Shown here in pieces: positions 44,374-60,914 of a stretch of 64,000 nt of DNA; positions within the stretch are counted from its first letter, which is position 1, and each line of letters begins with the position of its first letter. A program made the position numbers and the translations under genes. This DNA is from Rouxiella chamberiensis (GTDB taxonomy: Bacteria; Pseudomonadota; Gammaproteobacteria; Enterobacterales; Enterobacteriaceae), in NCBI RefSeq assembly GCF_026967475.1, contig NZ_CP114058.1:2790001-2854000 (forward strand). Reading direction: 5' to 3'. Under the pieces are notes generated by a model. That model was not told the DNA's origin. It made no database searches and saw only the letters and a list, made by a program, of their open reading frames with translations.

Positions 44374-45612
44374 ATGCGACTGATTCACACCTCTGACTGG
44401 CACCTCGGTCAGTACTTTTTTACCAAAAGCCGCGCGCCGGAGCATCAGGCCTTTCTCGACTGGCTCATCACGCAGGTTGAACAGCATCGGGTCGATGCGG
44501 TCATCGTCGCGGGCGACATCTTCGATACCGGCTCGCCGCCAAGCTACGCGCGCGAGTTGTATAACCGTTTTATCGTCAATTTGCAGCGCACAGGCTGTCA
44601 GCTGGTGGTGCTGGCCGGTAATCACGACTCCGTCGCAACCCTGAACGAATCGCGCGAGCTGCTCTCCTGCCTGAATACCCAAGTTATCGCGACCGTCGGC
44701 GACACTCTCGCGCGTCAGGTCATCACCCTGCAAGACAGGCAAGGCAATCCGGGCGCGATTCTCTGTGCCATTCCGTTTCTGCGCCCCCGTGATCTGCTGG
44801 CGAGCCGCGCCGGGCAGTCCGGTAATGAAAAGCAGATGGCCCTTCAGGAGGCGATTACCCAGCATTATTCGTCGCTGTATCAGGCGGCCTGCGAACGGCG
44901 CGATGCGCTCGGCCTCGCGTTGCCCATCATCGCCACCGGCCATCTCACCACCGTCGGTGTCACCACTTCGGATTCGGTGCGCGATATCTACATCGGCACG
45001 CTCGACGCCTTTCCCGCGCAGGCTTTCCCGCCCGTCGACTATGTCGCGCTCGGCCATATTCACCGCGCGCAGAAGATTGCCAAAACAGAGCATATTCGCT
45101 ACAGCGGCTCCCCTATTCCCCTGAGTTTCGACGAGGCGAGCAACGAGAAAAGCGTGTACCTGCTGGATTTCACAGGCGCAACGCTCAACGCCGTAGAAAC
45201 GCTGCCCGTGCCGCGCACGCAACCTATGGAAATCGTACGCGGCACGCTCGCCGAAATAGAGCAGCAATTGCTGGCCTATGAATCGCACGCGGAACAGGGC
45301 ACCGTCTGGCTGGATATCGAGGTCGCGACCCAGGATTATCTCAGCGATATTCAACGCCGCATCCAGCAACTCACCGACCCGTTACCGGTCGAAGTCGTGT
45401 TACTGCGCCGCAGCAAGGAACAAAGGATGCAGGGACTGTTGCAACAGGAAAAAGAGACGCTCAAAGAGCTGAGTGTGAATGACGTGTTCGAACGTCGGCT
45501 GGCGCAGGATACTGGCGCTGAAGCGGGCCGACAGCAGCGGATCCGCACACTGTTTACCCAGTTGGTTGAAGAGGTCGAGCACGGCCATTCGGCAGAGGAC
45601 GCCGCCCAGTGA
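44374..45612 (+). CDS. sbcD: Nuclease SbcCD subunit D
   Basis: Mre11-type manganese nuclease that with SbcC cuts DNA hairpins and palindromes. The phosphoesterase motifs appear in order: DWHLGQ, GDIFDTG, GNHDS, TGHLT and GHIHRAQ. The 412 residues slightly exceed E. coli SbcD (400). It is divergent from phoB, and its last bases overlap the GTG start of sbcC (GTGA), so the subunits are translationally coupled. Confidence 0.97.
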
Positions 45613-48600
45613 AAATTCTCTCCTTACGTTTAAAAAATATCAATTCGCTGGAAGGTGAATGGAAGATTGATTTCACCGCCGAGCCTTTCGCCAGCAACGG
45701 GCTGTTTGCCATTACGGGCGCGACCGGTGCGGGAAAAACCACCCTGCTCGACGCCATCTGTCTGGCGTTGTATCACAAGACGCCGCGTCTCGAGGTCTCG
45801 CCGACCCAGAATGAATTGATGACTCGTCATACGGCCGAATCTCTGGCCGAGGTCGAGTTCGAGGTCAAGGGCATCGGCTATCGCGCCTTCTGGAGCCAGC
45901 GCCGCGCCGGTAATTCCCCGACCGGCAATTTGCAGGCACCCAAGGTTGAGTTGGCGCAAATGGCCGACGGCAAGATACTGGCCGACAAGGTGCGCGACAA
46001 ACTGCCCGCGATAGCCGAGCTGACAGGTCTGGATTTTGGCCGTTTCACCAAGTCGATGATGCTGTCGCAGGGGCAGTTTGCCGCCTTCCTCAACGCCAAA
46101 CCCAATGAACGCGCCGATCTGCTCGAAGAACTGACCGGCACCGAAATCTATGGCCGCCTGTCTGCGCAAGTGTTCGAGCGCCACAAACAGGCGAAAATCG
46201 ACCTCGATCAACTGCATCAGCGCGCGGCGGGCATCGAACTGCTGAGCGAAGAACAGCGCCAGTTGCTTGAGCAGGAACGGCTGCAACTGGCCGAGCAGGA
46301 AAATGCTCTGGTTCAGTCCTCCGCGCAACAGCAGCGAGGGCTGGACTGGCTACGGCAGTGGCACAGCGAGCAGCAAAAACACCAGCATTATCAGCAGCAA
46401 CTCAACGATACCGAACAGCAGGCGCAACAGGCTTTACCGCAGTTGCAACGTCTTGCGCGCAGCGAACCGGCGGAAAAACTGCGGCCTTTATTGAAAGAGC
46501 GGCAGCAGCATCAGCACGCGCTGGATGAGTCCCTGCGCACTCTCGCCCGCCTCGATGCCGAGCAGCAGCAGCTCGACACCACCCTGACGCCACTGGCGCA
46601 GGCGCTGGAAAACGCCGTCGCGGCGCAGAAAAAGCAGGAAGAGGAAAAACGGCAGCAGGATCAACTGATTGACGACCAGATCCTGCCGCTGGACAACAAG
46701 ATAATGTCTCTGGCGGATCACCTTGACAACGATCGTCAGGATCATGGCAAACATCAGCGGCAGGTTCAGGAACAGGCGCAACATCTCCGCCAACTCATGG
46801 TCGAGCAAACGGCTCTCGAGCAAAAAAGCCGTCAGTTCAAGGTCAAAGAGCACGAGCTGCTCACCGCGCTGGAAACCCGGACCCGCCAGCAGAGCGAACT
46901 GGAACAACAGTCGCCCGCAGCCACCTTGCGTCAGCAACAGGCAGAACTGATTGCGCTTCGCCCGCGTCGCCTTCAACTCTCCCGGCTGTTGCCGCTCTCT
47001 CGGCAATTGAGTCAGCGAATAGCGCAACAGCAGCAGGAATTTGCCGCGCGCCAGACTGAACTGACTGGGCTTCAAACGCGTCTCAACGCCACGCGTGAAC
47101 AGTTTAAACAGAAGAAACAGCACCTTACCGACGTCGAAACCCTGCTGAAGCAGGAGCAGTTGATTGTCAGCCTTGAAGCCGAGCGCGCCCGTTTGCAGAC
47201 GGACGCCCCCTGTCCGCTGTGCGGCTCCACGTCGCATCCGGCCATCGCGCAGTATCAGGCGGTCAGTGTGTCTGAAACGCAGCGGCGGGCGGAGGTTTTG
47301 CGCCGTGAAACGGACACATTGCAAACCACCGGAACCGAACTGCGCACCCGAACGGAAAGCCTGAAAGAACAGCAGCAGCGGCTGCAACAGGCTCTCGACC
47401 AAGACGAAAGACAGCAGGCGGACTACCTCGAACAGTGGCAGGCGAACAGCCCCGCGCAGTCACCCAGTGCTTCGTTGCACGACCATGAACAGCTGGAAAA
47501 CTGGCTGCGCGAATGCGAAGAGCAGGAAACGCAGTATCAGCAGTGGCTGGCTCGACACGACGCGGCGGCACTGGCCATGCAACAGGCCCGAGATGCGCTG
47601 CAAACTGCGCTAAACGAACAGCATCAGGCGCAACAGCAGGAAGCGACGCTCACGGCTCGCCGCCAGCTGCTGGAAAAACCCTCGCCGATAGCCAGCTCGC
47701 ACTCGCTACCCGCACGCAGCAACTCGCCGAAAAAGAACAGGGATTAACTCAGCTTCGCGCGCAGCGCAGCGACCTGTTTGGCGACAGGCAGGTTGCTCAG
47801 GTGCGTGAGCACTTACGTCAGCAGCAGCAGGCCGCCGAACAGACACGCGAGCGGGCGTTTGATGCCTTACAGCAAGTCCGAAAACAGCTGGATAACCTCG
47901 CCGGTCAGCTGGTGACCTTCCATCAGACCCGGAAGCAGAATGAAGCCCGGCATGAACAGGCCAAAAAGAGTGGCTACAGGCGCTCGAGGCCAGCGAGTTC
48001 GACAGTGAACAGGCCGTCATCGAGGCGCTTCTCGATGAGGCGCAGCGCCTCGAACTGCAACAGCTTAAAGAAAATCTCCAGCAGCAGCAGACCCGCAGCA
48101 AGGCGTTGCTGCTACAGGCCGCCGAACAGTTGGTGCAGCATCTCGAAAGCCGTCCGGCGGGTCTCGACGAGCAGCACACCGCCCTGGAGACGCTGGAGGA
48201 AAGCCTTGCCACACTGGACAATCAGCTGCGCGCCCTGCAATTACGTCAGGGCGAGCTGCGCAGTCAGCTGGAAAGCGATAAACAGCGGCAGAGCGGGCAA
48301 CAGGCGCTGTTTATGCAGATAGCGCAATCGCAGGAGCAGCACGACGACTGGAGCTATCTCAATCATATCGTCGGCTCGAGCGACGGCGCGAAGTTCCGCC
48401 GTTTTGCGCAGGGATTGACGCTGGAGCATCTGGTTTATCTCGCCAACAAGCAGATGGACAAGCTGCATGGCCGCTACTTCCTGCAACGCAAGACCAGCGA
48501 CGCGCTTGAGCTTGAGGTGGTCGATACCTGGCAGGCCGATGCGGTGCGCGACACCCGCACGCTCTCCGGTGGCGAAAGTTTTCTGGTCAGTCTTGCGCTG

Positions 48601-48861
48601 GCGCTGGCCTTGTCGGATCTGGTCAGCGACAAGACGCGTATCGATTCGCTGTTCCTCGACGAAGGCTTTGGTACGCTCGACGCCGACACGCTGGACACGG
48701 CGCTGGATGCGCTCGACAGTCTCAATGCCAGCGGCAAGACCATTGGCGTAATCAGCCACGTCGAGGCGATGAAAGACCGGATTCCGGTGCAGATCAAGGT
48801 GAGAAAAGTTAACGGATTGGGAATAAGTCGGCTGGATAATATCTTTAAGGTGAATACCTGA
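45609..48861 (+). CDS. sbcC: Nuclease SbcCD subunit C (two single-base losses)
   Basis: Rad50-type SMC ATPase. It starts with GTG at 45609. Walker A is GATGAGKTT (37-45). Long glutamine-rich coiled coils follow, with a zinc hook CPLC at residues 535-538 in the middle. The ABC signature [10 protein letters not shown] and Walker [13 protein letters not shown] come at the end. Two frame breaks, both in A5 runs (47674-47678 and 47963-47967), are healed by adding one A each ([13 protein letters not shown] and [14 protein letters not shown]). The result is about 1084 residues (E. coli 1048). Confidence 0.95.
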
Positions 48862-48870
48862 CGGATGACT

Positions 48871-48907
48871 CGGCCACCCCTTTTGCAGGGTGTGGCCGTT
48901 ATTTTTT
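48871..48907 (+). terminator. Terminator of sbcDC
   Basis: Stem CGGCCAC / GTGGCCG with an inner CCC / GGG and one bulged T, then TTATTTTTT. The T run contains the stop codon of the convergent waaL-like gene. Confidence 0.85.
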
Positions 48908-50146
48908 AGACGCGCGGTTTATTCATCACAGGGAATGACAGCGCCAGCGCCATAATGACCATCAGCACGGTATTACTCTGTATTAATACCGTGTCAGCCA
49001 AACCGAGAATAAATATCGGCAGCAGAATAAAGAAGGTCCCATAATTCTGCAGCGCATTTCTGCGCAAAGAAAAATAGAAGCCCGCAATAAAGAACAACGC
49101 CAGCGAAATAAAGCCGAAAATACCCTGCAAGGAGAACGTATCGAGCAAATCATTGTGCAGATGATAGGCAACGTTGCTCTTGGCCGCCGGGTTCGCACGT
49201 TCCGAATTATCGATATAATCCAGTGCCTTGGCATAACGGCTATCCACGGTTTGACCCAGCATGTCAGGCGAGATGCTGTGTATTCCGGCCCCCACATCGA
49301 GAAGCGGGCACCAATCGACGTGGCGTTGTTGGTATTGTATTCGGCAATATCGCTGCCAATCTGCGAAATACGGTTCCACGAGAAATAGACCACGGATGAT
49401 GCCGCCAGCACGATGACAAGCGCCAGGGCCAGCTGAATTTTCAGGCTCACGCTGCGGTAATAATAGATAAAGAACGCGGCGAAGATAAGCGGCGTCAGCA
49501 AGATGGCCGAGCGGGTTTCCGTCATCAATATCATGCCCATCGTGAGTAGAAACACCAGAGAAAACAGTAGAATGGAAAAACCGCTGTCTTTATAGCAGGC
49601 GCGCACGGCGACAATGGTTGCCATCGCATAGATAACCACCAGATAGGCACCGGTTGTCGCGGCATCCGAAGTCCATTGCGCGCGATGAGTTAGCGGCTCG
49701 GGGGTAACATGTCCGTACCATAGAGAGATAGCCATGCCGATAAACATTACGCCGATGCCGAGTTTCAATACGCTGCGCAACAGCAGTGCGCGATACTGAT
49801 AAAAATAGAACAGCAAAAAGGCGGCAATAACAAAACGTTTGCCTCCCAGCGCGTAGTTATCGCGAATATCCTCGTAATGCGTCTGCTTGAAATGCCAGCT
49901 CCATACCAATCGACTTAACCCGACCAGCAATAGCGTAATGAAGAAATACAGTGCAGGTTTATCGAGATTCAGCGCCCGGCGATTCTGGTAGAAATAGACG
50001 AAGGTGTAAAAGATGGCGACATAACTCACCAGATAAAACAGCTTACCCGGATAGCCGTAAGTAAACAGGTCGATGGAAAAGGCGCAAAGCAGCGCCAGAA
50101 AACTCAGGTTATAGGCGAAAACATTCTTCCCGGATTCACGAATCAA
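48906..50146 (-). CDS. O-antigen ligase family protein, WaaL-like (one base missing)
   Basis: Polytopic membrane protein of about 413 residues with some 10-12 helices. WaaL joins O-antigen to lipid A core at the periplasmic face. It starts with TTG at 50146 (AAGGA upstream). TETRSAILLTP in the middle and HLHNDLLDTFSLQG near the C-terminus match conserved ligase positions, the latter with the essential histidine. The frame breaks in the C5 run at 49289-49293. One more base gives ARFSMWGAGIHSISPDMLG. It follows the GT8 gene by 3 bases, forming a small LPS operon. Confidence 0.82.
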
Positions 50147-51323: not shown

Positions 51324-52391
51324 CTAGTGCTGACGCGCCTGACGCCATTGACGCGGGCTCACGCCAAACCAGCGGCGAAACGCCCGCGAGAAGGCGCTGA
51401 CTTCGGAGTAGCCGAGCAGCAGCGCCATTTCGGAAATCGGCAGTTGCTGCTGCTGCAGATAATGGGTCGCCAGTTCGCAGCGCACTTTGTCGACCAGCAC
51501 GGTAAAGGTCAGGTTCTGTTCGCGCAGGCGGCGTTGCAGGGAACTGGTCGACATGCTCATTTTGTCGGCGACCTCTTCCAGCACCGGCTCACCGAGCGTC
51601 AGGCTCTGTCTAACCTGCGATCGCGCGCGATCGACCACGGACTGCGGCGAAAGGTTGTCGGCATTCAACCGGCGGATCGCATCCTGCATCACCAGCAGCA
51701 ATGTCTGATCCTGATCGGGCATCGATCGTTGCAGATCTCGCTTGGCGATGATCAACGAGTTGAACGGTTGATCGAAATACACCGGCGCATCGAAGATCTT
51801 GCAGTGCTCGTGCCACTGTTCGGGACGCGGATGTTCGAAATGCACCTCGCGCGGCGCCCAGTTTTTGCCGAGGCCGTGGCGCAGCAAATTTAAAACCATG
51901 CCCAGCGTCAGCTCGGCATCCTGACGTTTGCAGAGAATATTCCCGTGACGTACCTGATAGTCGAATCGATAATGATCGCCCTTGTCTACCAGCCGAGTTA
52001 GCGTGTTATGTTGATGATAAGGAAAGGCATTCACGACATTTTGCAGTGCCGTTTCCGCCGTCTGCGAACACAGACCAATGTATCCAATCAGGCCTAATGA
52101 CTGTGGTTTGAACTGCCTGCCGTAATGCAAACCGAAGTTATCACAACCCGATTGTCTGGCCGCTTCTTCCAGTACCTGACAATAGTTGGTGAGGCCAAGG
52201 CTCAGCGTTGGCCGTTGCAACTGCTCGGGATCGATATGGCAGATCCCCAATACGCGATCGACATCCGCGCCCTTGGTGATGATAAAATCGCTCAATCCAC
52301 TCGCCGCTGCTGCCAATACGCCCCGGTTACTGCTGATTTCAGCTTCGCCCGGCGTGCTCATCATGGTCTGGCGCAAGATTTCTGTCTGCAT
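51324..52391 (-). CDS. AraC-family regulator (OruR-like two-domain type)
   Basis: 355-residue regulator. The N-terminal half is an arabinose-binding-like domain (about 20-210). The C-terminal AraC HTH includes LEEVADKMSMSTSSLQRRL and YSEVSAFSRAFRRWFGVSP. The ATG at 52391 has GGAGGA 7 bases upstream; the open frame reaches 52448. This architecture is common in regulators of amino acid and amine catabolism. The kinase, phospho-lyase and permease genes next to it are the likely targets. A 14-base palindrome lies about 105 bases upstream. Confidence 0.88.
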   Translation of the reverse strand: MQTEILRQTMMSTPGEAEISSNRGVLAAAASGLSDFIITKGADVDRVLGICHIDPEQLQRPTLSLGLTNYCQVLEEAARQSGCDNFGLHYGRQFKPQSLGLIGYIGLCSQTAETALQNVVNAFPYHQHNTLTRLVDKGDHYRFDYQVRHGNILCKRQDAELTLGMVLNLLRHGLGKNWAPREVHFEHPRPEQWHEHCKIFDAPVYFDQPFNSLIIAKRDLQRSMPDQDQTLLLVMQDAIRRLNADNLSPQSVVDRARSQVRQSLTLGEPVLEEVADKMSMSTSSLQRRLREQNLTFTVLVDKVRCELATHYLQQQQLPISEMALLLGYSEVSAFSRAFRRWFGVSPRQWRQARQH

Positions 52392-52493
52392 GGTGTTATC
52401 CTCCACGTTATGCGTTGTGAAGCATTGCAAATTCCATACCAGCAACAAGATTATCAGGAAAATATCAGGGTTTTATCAGACACAATCGGGAAT

Positions 52494-52507
52494 CTGGTCT
52501 AGACCAG
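52494..52507. promoter_or_regulatory. 14-base perfect palindrome upstream of the araC-type gene
   Basis: CTGGTCTAGACCAG is perfectly symmetrical, between the kinase stop and the regulator start. It may be an operator for the regulator gene. Confidence 0.45.
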
Positions 52508-52602
52508 TCAAGGGTTTAGCGCGCTTTATAAGGTGTAGAACAGGAATGGCGGGTGAAGCCTGGCTGCACGCAAACCGTGCAGCCAAAGTGGAAAAATGGG
52601 AT

Positions 52603-53632
52603 TCAGCTCACCGCCAGCGCACATTCCTGCGTAGCCAGATACGCTTTGCAAAGCGCAAGACTGTCAGCTACCCAGCGTTCGCCCAGGCTTATCGCCATTT
52701 CGGTCGTCGCATGGGATCCTACCCAGGCCAGCAACTGGATGCGCCGCTGAATGATCATGGTCGGGATCACCGCCAACTCTTCTTCGCCCAATGGACAGAC
52801 ACGCTGATAACCCGCCAGCCAGTGCTCGACCCATTCGTGAGCACGCGGATGATGCTCGACAAAGCTGATTGCCGCCGCCGCGTCGTGCATATACCAGCCC
52901 ATGCCGCAGTCGTCGAAATCGATAACGCGGGTTTCGCCCTTGTGCAGCAGCAGATTGGTCAGACGCAGATCCGCGTGAATCAGCCCGTAGCGGCTGGCTG
53001 GCTTGCCGTAATGTTCCAGCACGCGGCTGACCCGCGCCAATGTCTGTTCAATGAGAGGATGATCTTCCGTCGCCAGTCCGGGCGCGTCCTGCCAGCGCCC
53101 CCAATGCCCTTGCGCGCTGACCATGGTGTGATGATCCCACACAATGCGCTTGAATCCGGCCGGTTTCTGCCAGCGCTGGCTATGAAGATGCAGACGCGCC
53201 GTCACCTCGCCCAGTTGAGCGAAGGCGCGCGGGTCAACGTCGGTGGTGGGCATCTCCCCTTCTATCCATTTGAACAGCACCACATGGCGGTTGATAGGTT
53301 CACCCTTGGGCTGCATGGGCTTTAGGGAAACGGTTTGCACCCGCTCGCCGTGGCGGGTATGCAGCGCTTCCGGCACCTGAATGCCGCTGTCTCGCAGGCT
53401 GTCGAGCCACGCCAGTTCGCTTTCAATCTCGTTGCGCTGATGATAGTCGTCGCGGTGGATGCGCAGCGCCAAAAGGTTGCCGTCGGCAAGGCGCACCTTG
53501 AAGGTCGCATTTTCGGAACGGCAGATCAGGGTAATTTCTCCGTGCAGAGATTCGGGATAGGCGAGCAGCGCCTGGTTCGGCGAGCTGTTGCAGGCTGGCG
53601 TTGTCCAGCGTATCAGACTGTTTTGCATTCAT
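52603..53632 (-). CDS. APH-fold small-molecule kinase, amino-alcohol or hydroxylysine kinase-like (one extra base)
   Basis: Phosphotransferase of the aminoglycoside/choline kinase fold. The catalytic loop is LIHADLRLTNLLLHKG and the metal-binding Asp is in RVIDFDDCGMGW. GITL...SENATFKVRLADG is the nucleotide lobe. The ATG at 53632 (GGAG upstream) starts MNAKQSDTLDNASLQQLAE. One extra base at 53574-53575 (GAACCAGG read as GAACAGG on the minus strand) must be removed to join this to QALLAYPESLHGEI, giving about 342 residues. Beside a phospho-lyase-like PLP enzyme it probably phosphorylates an amino alcohol such as ethanolamine or hydroxylysine. Confidence 0.82.
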
Positions 53633-53650
53633 CAGGATTTACTCCGGGCA

Positions 53651-53766
53651 AGTCAATGTGAGGTCGTGCTACCAGAATGAAAGCGACGGCGCTTCTGCGC
53701 TTGACTCGGGAAGACCAATTGTTGACTTCAACGGTCTGAAACCGGCGCGGCGGCGTGAAGTTGACT
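53651..53766. promoter_or_regulatory. Four TTGACT elements in the divergent kinase / phospho-lyase promoter region
   Basis: TTGACT occurs at 53701, 53722 and 53761 on the plus strand and at 53651-53656 on the minus strand. The first two are 21 bases apart, two helical turns, the spacing of AraC half-sites. The middle copy is part of a near-palindrome GTTGACTTCAAC. Chance would give about 0.1 copies in 271 bases. Confidence 0.45.
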
Positions 53767-53899
53767 CTGGCGTGCGGGAGTGAGGGCTCTGCGGTCAAGT
53801 TTTGTGGGCAGGCGCGGTGCATTATCGAGACAACTTCACTTGCCGGTCGATTAAGTCTGCCGGAAAAATTTAGCCGCATCCCGTCAGGAGATAATTAAC

Positions 53900-55213
53900 A
53901 TGCTGAAAACCAATGCTTTCGATGCTGCCGCCAGCGCAGACGTTTCACCTGCCGCACTTGAGATGATTGAACGCCGCCGCCGCTTGCTCGGCCCGGCCTA
54001 CCAGCTGTTTTACAAGAATCCGGTGCATCTGGTCCGCGGCGAAGGCGTGTGGGTCTTCGACGCCGACGGCAAACGCTATCTCGATGTCTACAACAATGTG
54101 CCCTCCGTGGGACACTGCCACCCACACGTGCTCGAGGCGTTGATCCGCCAGGCATCGACGCTGAACACCCATACTCGCTATCTGCACGACAACGTGCTTG
54201 ATTTCGCCGAAAAACTGGTTTCCACCATGCCGCCGGAGCTGAGTCAGGTGATGTTTACCTGCACCGGCAGTGAAGCCAACGATCTGGCGCTACGCATCGC
54301 CGAAGACTTTACCGGCGGTACCGGCGTTATCGTGACCGAATTCAGCTATCACGGCATGACCAAGGCGATTGCCGGTTTGTCGGCCTCGATGGGGCCGTAT
54401 GTGAAAGTGAACGGCGACGCCCGCGTGATCCCTGCCCCGATTCATAATCCGGCCAACCCTGCCGAGGTCGGCAAGAAATTTGCCGCCGACGTGCGCGCCG
54501 CGCTGGCTGACATGCGCCGCCACGGCATCAAGCCTGCGGCACTGATGATTGATACCTTCTTTACCAGCGACGGCGGTTTCTTTGATCCGGCAGGTTTCCT
54601 GAAAGAGGCTATCGATGAAATTCACAAGGCAGGCGCGCTGTATATTGCCGATGAAGTCCAGCCGGGTTATGGCCGTTCGGGCGAACACATGTGGGGCTTC
54701 CAGCGTCACGGCGTGCTGCCGGATATCGTCAGCCTCGGCAAGCCGATGGGCAACGGTCACCCGATGGCCGCCATTACCATCAAGCCGCACATTCTTGAGC
54801 GCTTCGGCAGCGAATCCAGCTATTTCAATACGTTCGGCGGCAACACCGTGTCTTCTGCCGTCGGTCTGGCGGTGCTGGAGGTGATTGAACAGGAAAACCT
54901 GATCCCGAGCGTGGGCCGTGCCGGCAAGGCGATTCTCGACGGCATCACCGAACTCGCCACCCGCTTCCCGGCTATCGGCAGCGTGCGCGGCGCGGGTCTG
55001 TTTGTCAGCGTCGATTTCACCACGCCGGAAGGCGAACCGGATTCGGCCACCGCGCTGGCGGTCGTCAATGCGCTGCGTGAAGAAGGCGTGCTGATTGGCG
55101 CATCCGGCCCGCACGCCAATATCCTGAAGATCCGCCCACCGCTGGTCTTTACCGCCGAGCACAGCCTGATTCTGGTCGAAAGTCTGGAAAAAGTGCTGGC
55201 CAAAATGTACTGA
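53900..55213 (+). CDS. Class III PLP enzyme, amino-alcohol phosphate phospho-lyase-like
   Basis: 437-residue fold-type I PLP enzyme. PLP binds Lys281 in VSLGKPMGNGHP, with Asp251 in IADEVQPGYGRSG. YLDVYNNVPSVGHCHP and NTHTRYLHDN are characteristic of the AGXT2L phospho-lyases for O-phosphoethanolamine and 5-phosphohydroxylysine rather than of transaminases. The reaction would release phosphate and ammonia, leaving an aldehyde. AGGAGA precedes the ATG. It is divergent from the kinase and 54 bases upstream of an ethanolamine-type permease. A plain omega-transaminase remains an alternative. Confidence 0.88.
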   Translation: MLKTNAFDAAASADVSPAALEMIERRRRLLGPAYQLFYKNPVHLVRGEGVWVFDADGKRYLDVYNNVPSVGHCHPHVLEALIRQASTLNTHTRYLHDNVLDFAEKLVSTMPPELSQVMFTCTGSEANDLALRIAEDFTGGTGVIVTEFSYHGMTKAIAGLSASMGPYVKVNGDARVIPAPIHNPANPAEVGKKFAADVRAALADMRRHGIKPAALMIDTFFTSDGGFFDPAGFLKEAIDEIHKAGALYIADEVQPGYGRSGEHMWGFQRHGVLPDIVSLGKPMGNGHPMAAITIKPHILERFGSESSYFNTFGGNTVSSAVGLAVLEVIEQENLIPSVGRAGKAILDGITELATRFPAIGSVRGAGLFVSVDFTTPEGEPDSATALAVVNALREEGVLIGASGPHANILKIRPPLVFTAEHSLILVESLEKVLAKMY

Positions 55214-55267
55214 TTTTCTCCGCCGGTACTGGCGGGCGTGCGGTTCATTCATCTTCAGGAGAGCAAC

Positions 55268-56631
55268 ATGACAACACAGCTTAAACCGACGCTGGGCACG
55301 CTACATCTGTGGGCCATCGCCGTCGGCCTGGTTATTTCCGGCGAATATTTTGGCTGGAGTTATGGCTGGGGCGTGGCCGGCACGCTCGGTTTTCTGGCGA
55401 CCACCCTGCTGGTCGCCACCATGTACACCTGTTTTATCTTCAGTTTTACCGAGTTGACCACCGCCATTCCGCATGCGGGCGGTCCGTTTGCCTACAGCCG
55501 ACGAGCCTTTGGAGAAACAGGTGGTCTGATTGCGGGCATGGCGACGCTGATTGAGTTCGTTTTCGCGCCGCCCGCCATTGCGCTGGCGATAGGTGCCTAC
55601 CTCAATGTGCAGTTTCCTCATCTCAATCCCAAAGTCGCCGCGCTCGGCGCGTATCTGCTGTTTATGGGACTGAATATTCTGGGGTGAAACTTGCCGCGCT
55701 GTTTGAACTGGTCGTCACGGTGCTGGCGGTTCTGGAATTGCTGGTGTTTATGGGCGTAGTCGCGCCCGGCTTCAGCGTCAGTAATTTCGTGCTCAACGGC
55801 TGGTCCGGCGGCAATCATTTCGGCATGACGGCGGTCTCGGGTATCTTCGCGGCCATCCCGTTTGCTATCTGGTTCTTCCTCGCGATTGAAGGCGCGGCGA
55901 TGGCGGCCGAAGAAGCCAAGGATCCGAAACGCACCATTCCCAAAGCCTATGTCAGCGGGATCCTGACACTCGTGGTGCTGGCAATCGGCGTAATGATCAT
56001 GGCCGGTGGCGCGGGTGACTGGAGCAAGCTCGCGAATATCAACGATCCGCTGCCGCAGGCGATGAAAATGGTGGTCGGCGAGCATTCGAGCTGGATGCAC
56101 ATGCTGGTGTGGATTGGCCTGTTCGGACTGGTCGCCAGCTTCCATGGCATTATTCTGGGCTATTCGAGACAGTTCTTTGCGCTGGCGCGGGCCGGATATC
56201 TTCCTGCCGGGCTGGCCAGGCTGTCGCGGTTCCAGACTCCGCATCGCGCCATTCTTCTCGGCGGAGTGATAGGCATTGCCGCGATATTCAGCGACGGCGT
56301 CATCAACCTGCAAGGCATGTCTCTGACCGCTGCGATGATTACGATGGCGGTTTTCGGCGCGATTGTCATGTATATCATGAGCATGCTCAGCCTGTTCAAG
56401 CTGCGCAAAACCGCGCCGGATCTAGTACGCAGTTTCCGTGCGCCGGGGTATCCGGTTGTGCCGGGTATCGCGCTCTTTCTCGCCGTGGTCTGTCTGATTG
56501 CGATGATAGGATTCAACCTCGAAATCGCCGGTATTTTTGTGGTGTTTATGCTGGTCGCCTACCTCTATTTCGGCGCGACCAAGGCGCAGCGCAATGCGGC
56601 AGCACCCGATGCGATGCTGTCGGGTGAATAA
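55268..56631 (+). CDS. Ethanolamine-type amino acid/amine permease (one base missing)
   Basis: APC-superfamily transporter of about 454 residues with 12 helices. It begins TLGTLHLWAIAVGLVISGEY, followed by FGWSYGWGVAG, the signature of the ethanolamine permease (Eat) branch. The ATG at 55268 has AGGAGA upstream. The frame breaks after LFMGLNILG in the G4 run near 55681-55684. One more G gives GLNILGVKLAALFELVVTV. Lying 54 bases after the phospho-lyase gene, it should import that pathway's substrate. A terminator follows. Confidence 0.88.
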
Positions 56632-56655
56632 CGCAATTCAGAAAGGAGAATGATG

Positions 56656-56685
56656 ATGGCCTGCCGATGCGCAGGCCATTTTTTT
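56656..56685 (+). terminator. Rho-independent terminator of the phospho-lyase / permease operon
   Basis: Stem ATGGCCTGC / GCAGGCCAT with a 6-base loop and seven Ts, 24 bases after the permease stop. Confidence 0.92.
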
Positions 56686-57833: not shown

Positions 57834-58747
57834 ATGTTATGGTTTAAAAATTTGCTGGTTTATCGCTTAAGCCGTGAAATCTCACTGTCTACCGACGAGA
57901 TGGAAAAACAGCTGAGTGCCTTCACCTTTACCCCTTGCGGCAGCCAGGATATGTCGAAAACCGGTTGGGTTTCCCCGATGGGTTCGCAGGGCGGCGATGC
58001 GCTGACTCACGTCAGTAACGGCCAGATCCTGATTTGCGCGCGCAAAGAGGAAAAATCCTGCCTTCGCCTGTCATCAAGCAAGAGTTGCAGGCAAAAATCG
58101 ACAAAATTGAAGGCGAGCAGCATCGCAAACTCAAGAAGACCGAAAAAGATTCGCTGAAAGACGAAGTGCTGCACACGCTGATGCCGCGCGCCTTTAGCCG
58201 TTTCAGTCAGACCTTCATGTGGATAGATACCGTCAACGGCCTGATTATGGTCGACGCAGGCAGCGCGAAAAAAGCCGAAGACATGCTGGCCCTGCTGCGC
58301 AAGAGCCTGGGCTCGCTGCCGGTGGTGCCGCTGACGATGGAAAGCCCTATCGAACTGACATTGACCGAATGGGTGCGCTCCGGCGAAACGCCTGCCGGTT
58401 TTGCCCTGCAGGATGAAGCCGAGCTGAAAGCCATTCTGGAAGAAGGCGGCGTGATCCGCTGCAAGAAGCAGGCGCTGGTCAGCGACGAGATTGCCAACCA
58501 CATTGAAAATGGCAAGCTGGTGACCAAACTGGCGGTTGACTGGCAGGAGCGCATTCAGGTGGTGCTGGCCGATGACGGCAGCATCAAACGTCTGAAGTTC
58601 GCCGATGTGATTCGTGAACAAAACGATGATATCGACCGCGAAGATTTCGGCGCACGTTTCGATGCCGATTTCATTCTGATGACGGGCGAACTGGCGGCGT
58701 TAATCAAGAATCTGGTTGAAGCACTGGGCGGCGAAGCCCAGCGCTAG
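57834..58747 (+). CDS. rdgC: Recombination-associated protein RdgC (one base missing)
   Basis: Ring-shaped double-stranded DNA-binding protein that limits RecA action. It starts [20 protein letters not shown]. The frame breaks after ICARKEEK in the A5 run at 58051-58055. One more A gives [20 protein letters not shown] and a continuous 304 residues (E. coli 303). The rest, including [20 protein letters not shown], is well conserved. It stands alone, divergent from mak. Confidence 0.94.
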
Positions 58748-59918: not shown

Positions 59919-60849
59919 TTAGTCTCGGCTTTGCAGGTGGCGCAGACTGCCGTAGAGCGACAGCAGCAGCTGGTATTCGTCGGCGTCATAGAACTGGCAG
60001 GTACCGCGACCAAATTCCTTGGCGACTTCCACGGCAAATTTCACCGCCAGCGCAATATCGGTTTCATGGCTCGCGCCTGTACCGCAGCCCGGCACCACGG
60101 ATTCCGCCGTGATTGCCACGCCGACAACCGGCACGGTTGTGGCGGTTGAAGGTTGCAGGATGCTGTTGAGGTGATGCACGCCGTTGCCGTAAGGCGTGAT
60201 GTCCTGCGTGGTAATCGGGAAGGTCACCGCCGGACGACCGCTGGTCATCTCCATAATCCGCAGCAAGTCTTCGGAGACGCGCAGGATATACCCCTCTTTC
60301 ACCGTCGGCGACAGCGCATAACCTTTATGGTTGATGATGCGGTTGCCTTTGGTGGTATCGATGGAGAGGATGGCGTCAACGCCGTCGACCACTTCGTTTT
60401 CATTCATGGTGACGTCATCGATAGGTGAATCCATGAAATCCACCGGATCATGCGGACGAGTCGGCGCGGTTCGGACAGATATGCGTCGTGATTATCACGT
60501 CTCCCGCCAGCACGTCGCCCTTGCGCTGCATTTCGGCCAGCTTGAGCGCGCTGCTGATGGCGGCAATCGCGCCGTCGGCATCGGAAACCACGCCAATGCG
60601 GGTCGGACGCGCGCCAATGCCACCCAGACGGCCGATAATGCCGAGCGTCGGGGCCTCGCCGCCACGCGTTTTACCGGTGCTGCCCGGAATAATGATATGC
60701 ACGAAATCGGTCGCGCCTTTTGCGCCGCTTACACGGTGCGTTGAGGCGGTTACGGACGGGTAGTCGTCAAAGAGATCGACGATGTCCTGTCCGCTGACGT
60801 GCGCATTGTCGATCAATTCAAATACGGTAAGGGTCTGAAGCAAACTCAT
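59919..60849 (-). CDS. DUF1177 family protein (one extra base)
   Basis: Protein of unknown function, about 309 residues after correction. The ATG at 60849 (GAGGAAG upstream) starts MSLLQTLTVFELIDNAHVSG. The frame breaks after THICPN. Removing one G of the GG at 60468-60469 (GAACCG read as GAACG on the minus strand) gives CPNAPTRPHDPVDFMDSP. It is rich in conserved-looking Asp, His and Cys (VSDADGA, TTHICP), suggesting a metal-dependent hydrolase, but this is a guess. It lies between an OPT transporter and AroM. Confidence 0.82.
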
Positions 60850-60914
60850 GTCATCTTCCTCTGAACGACGCGGCTGACGCCCAAGGCGCACAATCAAAGC
60901 AACCGCGTGAGTCC

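Follow-up and report, generated by a model that had tools for sequence, protein, structure and literature searches.

In the 64,000-nucleotide stretch of Rouxiella chamberiensis DNA analyzed here (hereafter, the window), an AraC-family regulator, an APH-fold kinase, a divergently transcribed class III enzyme dependent on pyridoxal phosphate (PLP), and an ethanolamine-type permease are encoded side by side, at the places where the initial annotation had put them. These four genes very probably constitute a module that breaks down small amino alcohols, in which the substrate would be imported, phosphorylated, and then stripped of phosphate and ammonia. This order of import, phosphorylation, and elimination is well supported in silico. 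The genes are not chance neighbors: the stretch is syntenic in Rouxiella silvae, and the module recurs in further genomes.

From its sequence score, position in the tree, motifs, and fold, the PLP enzyme can be assigned to the class III phospho-lyases (the EC 4.2.3.2 group) and not to the transaminases, and it thereby withstood the sequence-based part of the refutation proposed in the initial annotation. Its scores to the solved phospho-lyases are 370 and 339 bits, and that to the next class III enzyme is 160 bits. In the tree it sits with the phospho-lyases, and the fold comparison agrees. The PLP-binding lysine and the group motifs NNV, TRYL, GKPMGNGHP, and YFNTFGGN are all present; the motifs were drawn from this alignment, with no published list behind them. 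The hallmarks described in the initial annotation are also found, namely LDVYNNV and the lysine of GKPMGNGHP as residue 281.

The best solved match of the kinase is 6ef6, a microcompartment aminopropanol kinase (37% identity), which is the nearest both by sequence and by fold and falls in the same clade of the tree. The kinase of the Rhodococcus RHA1 microcompartment locus, which the tree pairs with 6ef6 with a support of only 80, is 40% identical to the window kinase. By clade, the window kinase is thus assigned to the aminopropanol-kinase (6ef6) type. Nothing beyond the shared fold favors hydroxylysine as a substrate, and no test aimed at hydroxylysine was made.

The linkage of the two enzymes was followed in the best 80 of at least 595 loci holding relatives of the lyase. 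A kinase of the window type is present in six of them, with identities of 45-79%, and no kinase was detected in four: L015, and L018, L059, and L065, whose contigs measure 5-7 kb. A survey of 248 genomes from the order found the kinase in 10 and a lyase relative in 18, all 10 being within the 18. Seven of the remaining eight lyase genomes contain open frames of 781-810 amino acids. The three such frames that were read (L125, L126, and L127) are APH-Aminotran_3 fusions, and their lyase part belongs to the phospho-lyase clade. Open frames of fusion-like size were also seen in G121, G145, G039, and G057. A different APH kinase is paired with the lyase in L019 and the other cluster 13 loci, and in 7 of the 80 loci this pairing is accompanied by a HAD-like hydrolase.

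On comparison of genomes, the araC-kinase-permease arrangement is a conserved enterobacterial module. It is common to G114, G089, G148, G170, G222, and G251, with identities to the window of 62-78% for the regulator, 53-63% for the kinase (that of L095 came from a separate comparison), and 74-81% for the second piece of the permease. G114 is Pectobacterium-like: its kinase and lyase are 95% and 98% identical to Pectobacterium aroidearum proteins. The lyases of these six genomes are only 43-46% identical to that of the window and form a separate clade (support of 100), nearer to the Rhodococcus microcompartment enzyme (87); they are called Erwinia-type below. In G222 and G251, the module occupies the chromosomal site of the window without the lyase, and the lyase lies elsewhere beside fdo-like genes (named by eye). 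In other words, two phospho-lyase lineages seem to serve the module, that of the window and one in Pectobacterium and Erwinia. Both occur in Rouxiella by name, because P0138, a protein recorded under Rouxiella sp. Mn2063, shares 85% identity with the Erwinia-type lyase. In addition, a sequence resembling pyridoxal kinase was noted by eye near the lyase in G148 and G170 (L101 and L102).

An operator-like array of four boxes, TTGAC-N28-GTCAA-N34/35-GTCAA-N16-GTCAA on the kinase strand, occupies the divergent intergenic region. Across the 248 genomes, the exact array was found once in each of five, always by the kinase, and the backward control gave 0 matches; these five belong to the ten kinase-bearing genomes. 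All four boxes are present in G089 with one spacing one base longer, G148 has one mismatch, and G170 has boxes at other spacings. G107 and G236, with kinases of only 33-41% identity, gave no array match, and no boxes were found upstream of the lyase genes that lie apart from the module in G251 and G222. In 1.96 Mb of loci including the window (L081-L094 and L117 onward left out), a search that tolerated up to two mismatches and slight shifts in spacing gave matches in 12 sources, and all of the listed ones lie by the kinase. Each of 19 regions upstream of the kinase was compared with 200 shuffles. No more than 2 shuffles attained the observed box count in 13 regions, 10 did so in Acinetobacter ursingii, and 91-200 did so in the other five, which are those of Acidithiobacillus, Salinicola aestuarinus, Moraxella, Agrobacterium C58, and RHA1.

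Twenty of 47 kinase regions, picked to span the identity range and including six of the seven closest (the seventh is R. silvae), were fetched afterwards, and none had been used to define the pattern. The array is exact in 18 of them, has one mismatch in another, and is absent in G256, which holds the kinase only and is also the only one of the 20 without an araC match. The 18 exact arrays are not independent, because several of these genomes are close to earlier ones (two lyases are 97-99% identical to that of G114). A window-type lyase adjoins the array in six regions, followed by the permease in five (G542 gave no permease match), and an Erwinia-type lyase follows the permease in three. In ten regions no lyase was found within approximately 6 kb; a genome-wide search for it was not made.

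The regulator scores 317.7 bits to NCBIfam QhpR (NF049968; cut-off, 250), and seven of seven other regulators tested also exceed this cut-off. Its true start probably lies inside the listed open reading frame (ORF), since homology begins near 52400. QhpR controls an amine-dehydrogenase operon. No amine-dehydrogenase genes were noticed in the ORF list for 46-62 kb, where no search aimed at them was made, and the QhpR name should not be read as the role of the regulator here. The array accompanies modules with this AraC regulator, and the 21-base spacing suits an AraC protein. Thus, the boxes are considered to be the putative binding sites of the regulator. The tie is not absolute, because a complete array is lacking in four carriers of the regulator, namely Salinicola aestuarinus, Moraxella, G170, and Acinetobacter ursingii. 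The array provides a sharp regulatory signature for finding further members.

Piece 2 of the permease alone exceeds the TIGR00908 cut-off (398.1 versus 381.75), and the intact permease of R. silvae scores 633. In R. silvae, the single TIGR00908 gene over the cut-off is that of the module, and in P. hunanensis the best TIGR00908 gene adjoins eutB and eutC. From this membership and these contexts, ethanolamine would be the likeliest compound imported. The kinase clade and the RHA1 locus favor 1-amino-2-propanol, the permease favors ethanolamine, and both were kept. If the pathway is read correctly, ethanolamine is the somewhat favored main substrate, 1-amino-2-propanol is a credible but less probable second, and any other compound is improbable. 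The alternative that the module serves 1-amino-2-propanol, from aminoacetone or from outside, and not ethanolamine, with propionaldehyde as the product, seems rather doubtful. It would agree with 6ef6 and the RHA1 kinase as relatives of the window kinase, and also with the presence of EutB and EutC in several close relatives, where ethanolamine thus has its own route. However, the permease is an ethanolamine-permease equivalog, and no adjoining short-chain dehydrogenase, which would convert aminoacetone to 1-amino-2-propanol, was seen by eye in the ORF list; the Moraxella and Agrobacterium loci, unlike the window, have a gene annotated fabG. Moreover, the window lyase has GNGHP, as in the two solved phosphoethanolamine lyases, whereas RHA1 has GNGMP and eight Erwinia-type rows have GNGIP, a difference that may bear on the substrate.

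From these observations we infer the following route, with ethanolamine still the preferred substrate. The permease would import ethanolamine, or possibly 1-amino-2-propanol, and the APH-fold kinase would phosphorylate its hydroxyl group with ATP. The class III enzyme would then bind the phosphorylated amine on its cofactor at Lys281 and eliminate phosphate, then ammonia, so as to give acetaldehyde (or propionaldehyde). The QhpR-like regulator is expected to control the divergent promoter region through the four-box array. The aldehyde might be taken by general enzymes such as AdhE. The initial annotation saw no aldehyde dehydrogenase nearby, and with two query enzymes none was found in the whole window. 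One of these queries matched in 12 of the 80 lyase loci and in its own locus. In 8 of 13 module genomes, a protein of AdhE size is related to the RHA1 aldehyde dehydrogenase (E<=1e-40), and the aldehyde could go to this enzyme.

Several points weigh against this route. Most relatives of the lyase pair with a kinase of another APH subfamily, which is matched in 70 of the 80 lyase loci. The nearest solved relative of the window kinase acts, by its title, on aminopropanol and not on ethanolamine. The structural model of the kinase is moderately reliable (mean predicted local distance difference test score of 72), with residues 215-259, which hold the catalytic motifs, below 50. The family name of the permease is annotation only. 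The residue after the Lys-GNG motif is histidine in the window lyase, 5g4i, 6tor, and the three fusions, isoleucine in the eight Erwinia-type rows, and methionine in RHA1; since it varies among relatives, substrates may differ between subclades. No aldehyde dehydrogenase adjoins the module, and at E<=1e-40 the AdhE-like match is absent from five of the 13 module genomes (G003, G004, G056, G252, and G253). Furthermore, the kinase and permease frames are broken in the window, and true breaks would mean a nonfunctional module in this strain. For these proteins, activity, growth, and binding are predictions.

The initial annotation proposed a route without the B12-dependent eut enzyme. As a stand-in for missing EutBC, the cluster does not hold in simple form: R. 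silvae has both EutB and EutC, and the kinase and EutB occur together at the background rate. EutB was found in 12 of 47 kinase carriers and in 88 of 295 others among 342 genomes of the family (p 0.61), and in 2 of 10 versus 40 of 238 in the order-wide sample (p 0.68); the counts are rough, since the sample consists of related genomes and contains reduced ones from symbionts. Five of seven genomes with the window-type lyase have EutB, with EutC in the same five, versus none of six with the Erwinia type (p 0.021). Where the kinase is at least 70% identical, EutB is present in five of seven, versus 7 of 40 other kinase genomes (p 0.008). These p-values overstate, because the genomes are related. 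In the 20 later regions, EutB accompanies four of six window-type lyases, none of three Erwinia-type lyases, and four of the ten without a nearby lyase, and is not found in G256. A cobalamin-independent replacement of EutBC, kept where B12 is lacking or not supplied, is therefore unlikely. The absence of EutB from the Erwinia-type genomes agrees with it; the window-type carriers and the family-wide co-occurrence at background do not. The simple replacement idea fails for the window-type lineage but may still apply on the Erwinia side.

From 43.9 to 64 kb, the window is syntenic with R. silvae, with DNA identities of 67-80% by segment, and the PLP enzyme is 95% identical to its R. silvae counterpart. 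The cluster has on one flank an sbcC-like gene with surface-polysaccharide-like genes and on the other flank genes that resemble mak and rdgC, all named by eye. The features are listed in Table 1. The hairpin evidence is weak, since 6 terminator-like sites were found versus 5.0 expected from shuffles. Promoter-like sites (3 versus 2.8 expected) were set aside, and the Rfam and tRNA scans of the window gave no matches.

Table 1. Features of the module; positions count from the first letter of the window.
Feature	Position	Strand	Remarks
AraC-family regulator, QhpR-like	51324..52448	-	Pfam Arabinose_bd + HTH_18; NCBIfam QhpR; 88% to R. silvae
APH-fold amino-alcohol kinase (predicted)	52603..53628	-	Frame broken near N-terminus, ~53570
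Operator-like four-box array	53701..53798	-	Boxes 53794-53798, 53761-53765, 53722-53726, 53701-53705; spacings 33, 39, 21
Class III PLP-dependent amino-alcohol-phosphate phospho-lyase (predicted)	53900..55213	+	PLP-binding Lys281 at 54740-54742
Ethanolamine-type APC permease, piece 1	55238..55687	+	149 aa; TIGR00908 209.8 bits, positions 2-139 of 442; frame broken at junction
Ethanolamine-type APC permease, piece 2	55684..56631	+	315 aa; TIGR00908 398.1 bits, positions 141-441
Terminator-like hairpin 3' of permease	56655..56680	+	10-pair stem, then T run; weak

The permease is one frame of 464 residues in R. silvae, versus two in the window, and the first approximately 18 residues of the kinase ORF are unlike those of homologues. 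These breaks might be true mutations of a decaying module. Two breaks within one module fit such decay; in G056, a carrier of the window-type lyase (L103 7612-8975), the permease is also in two frames, broken elsewhere, and G542 gave no permease match. On the other hand, the frames of the PLP enzyme and the regulator are intact, a metagenomic protein 99% identical to the rest of the window kinase has the usual N-terminus, and the permease is unbroken in R. silvae and in five of six further relatives with the same lyase type, the sixth being G542. Further frames are broken relative to R. silvae within 20 kb (45609-48861, 48906-50146, 57834-58747, and 59919-60897), in genes that by eye resemble sbcC, an O-antigen ligase gene, and rdgC, as well as in one near 60467. 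Because other window genes are also broken and the relatives are intact, assembly error seems likelier than decay, which we consider quite improbable.

The names given to its relatives in databases, either "aspartate aminotransferase family protein" or "2,2-dialkylglycine decarboxylase", and the closeness of all class III folds to one another might suggest that the PLP enzyme is a common omega-transaminase or decarboxylase with an incidental kinase partner. This reading is very improbable given its score, tree, motifs, and fold, the linkage to the kinase, and the natural kinase-lyase fusions, and the transaminase identity was rejected on score, tree, and fold. Relatives that carry the first of these names, which is the most frequent one in the listed 120 of 7,999 matches, are probably phospho-lyases.

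A Herbaspirillum operon resembling the cluster 13 loci in content ends in an Lrp regulator (PMC13275390). The module or its relatives are found on plasmids of Acinetobacter ursingii, Chimaeribacter arupi, and Moraxella osloensis (L110, L111, and L112), and the Acinetobacter ursingii copy sits among insertion sequence elements. On a Mesorhizobium plasmid (L116 5167-8969), a distant kinase and phospho-lyase lie beside a phenylacetate-degradation cluster; this pair is perhaps for beta-hydroxy-phenethylamines.

Joining a kinase with a phospho-lyase has precedents, as the aminopropanol kinase and structures of phospho-lyases are already published. The pairing is already known from the mycobacterial microcompartment, and Mallette and Kimber reportedly noted in 2018 that aminopropanol kinase is often associated with a candidate phospho-lyase. 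The kinase of that microcompartment appears, by title, in the reference list of PMC8007038. The kind of pathway is thus already known. The permease-linked, AraC-controlled enterobacterial form, the array, and the lyase exchange were not found in print in the open-licence literature searched and look new.

Among known systems, EutBC has the same presumed input and product as the window route, but its enzymes are unrelated to the window kinase and lyase, and it uses radical chemistry, in contrast to ATP-driven phosphate elimination. The human ETNPPL (6tor) and Arthrobacter A1RDF1 (5g4i) belong to the same class III subgroup as the window enzyme. They share the NNV, R-Y/F-L, GKPMGNGHP, and FNT motifs and superpose on it at 1.6-1.7 Å; they differ from it in sequence, with identities of 39 and 42% over the aligned part. 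The Rhodococcus-Mycobacterium (aminoacetone utilisation) microcompartment has a kinase of the same clade and, in RHA1, a phospho-lyase-clade PLP enzyme 46% identical to that of the window in one locus with the kinase. The RHA1 locus has a GntR regulator, whereas the window has an AraC regulator and an ethanolamine-type permease; four RHA1 shell proteins and the aldehyde dehydrogenase gave no match in the window (tblastn, E<=1e-3), and the queries found their own locus. The microcompartment PLP enzyme is drawn as an aminotransferase in the scheme of PMC6620236. Against this scheme, the RHA1 counterpart (L114 4096-5703) falls among the phospho-lyases in the tree.

Amino-alcohol kinase and amino-alcohol phosphate phospho-lyase activities were reportedly first assayed in Erwinia, in the 1970s. 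The initial annotation proposed the cluster as their genetic basis. This stands in so far as the Pectobacterium-like genome and others carry araC, kinase, and permease; it does not stand for the lyase, which in those genomes is of the other lineage. In other words, the window cannot be equated with the enzyme set of Erwinia, because the lyase lineage on the Erwinia side differs. In the open-licence literature searched, no paper was found that ties a sequence to the assayed Erwinia proteins or the enterobacterial genes to an activity. Tentatively, the module could be the missing genetic basis of the Erwinia route, run by an AraC regulator that responds to amino alcohols and acts through a fixed four-box operator. 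Enterobacteria would have exchanged the lyase while keeping the rest of the module: on the Erwinia side it is of a lineage akin to the microcompartment enzyme, and in Rouxiella and its relatives it is Salinicola-like, perhaps with a shift of preference from propanolamine phosphate to ethanolamine phosphate.

Reviews (PMC5821096) credit ethanolamine use, that of Erwinia included, to the eut genes. This account may need revision, because G114 and the five other module genomes with the Erwinia-type lyase lack EutB. The same review gives "eutR" as plant-induced in Erwinia chrysanthemi (Dickeya). This "eutR" could be the AraC regulator of the module, because Dickeya carries relatives of the window kinase and of the Erwinia-type lyase. 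With the module, an old orphan biochemistry gains named genes through which it can be tested, in bacteria that are easy to culture. Compared with the Erwinia activities, the Pectobacterium-like genome has the araC-kinase-permease set together with a phospho-lyase, Erwinia species hold relatives of both the kinase and the lyase, and the Erwinia-type lyase clade is separate from that of the window.

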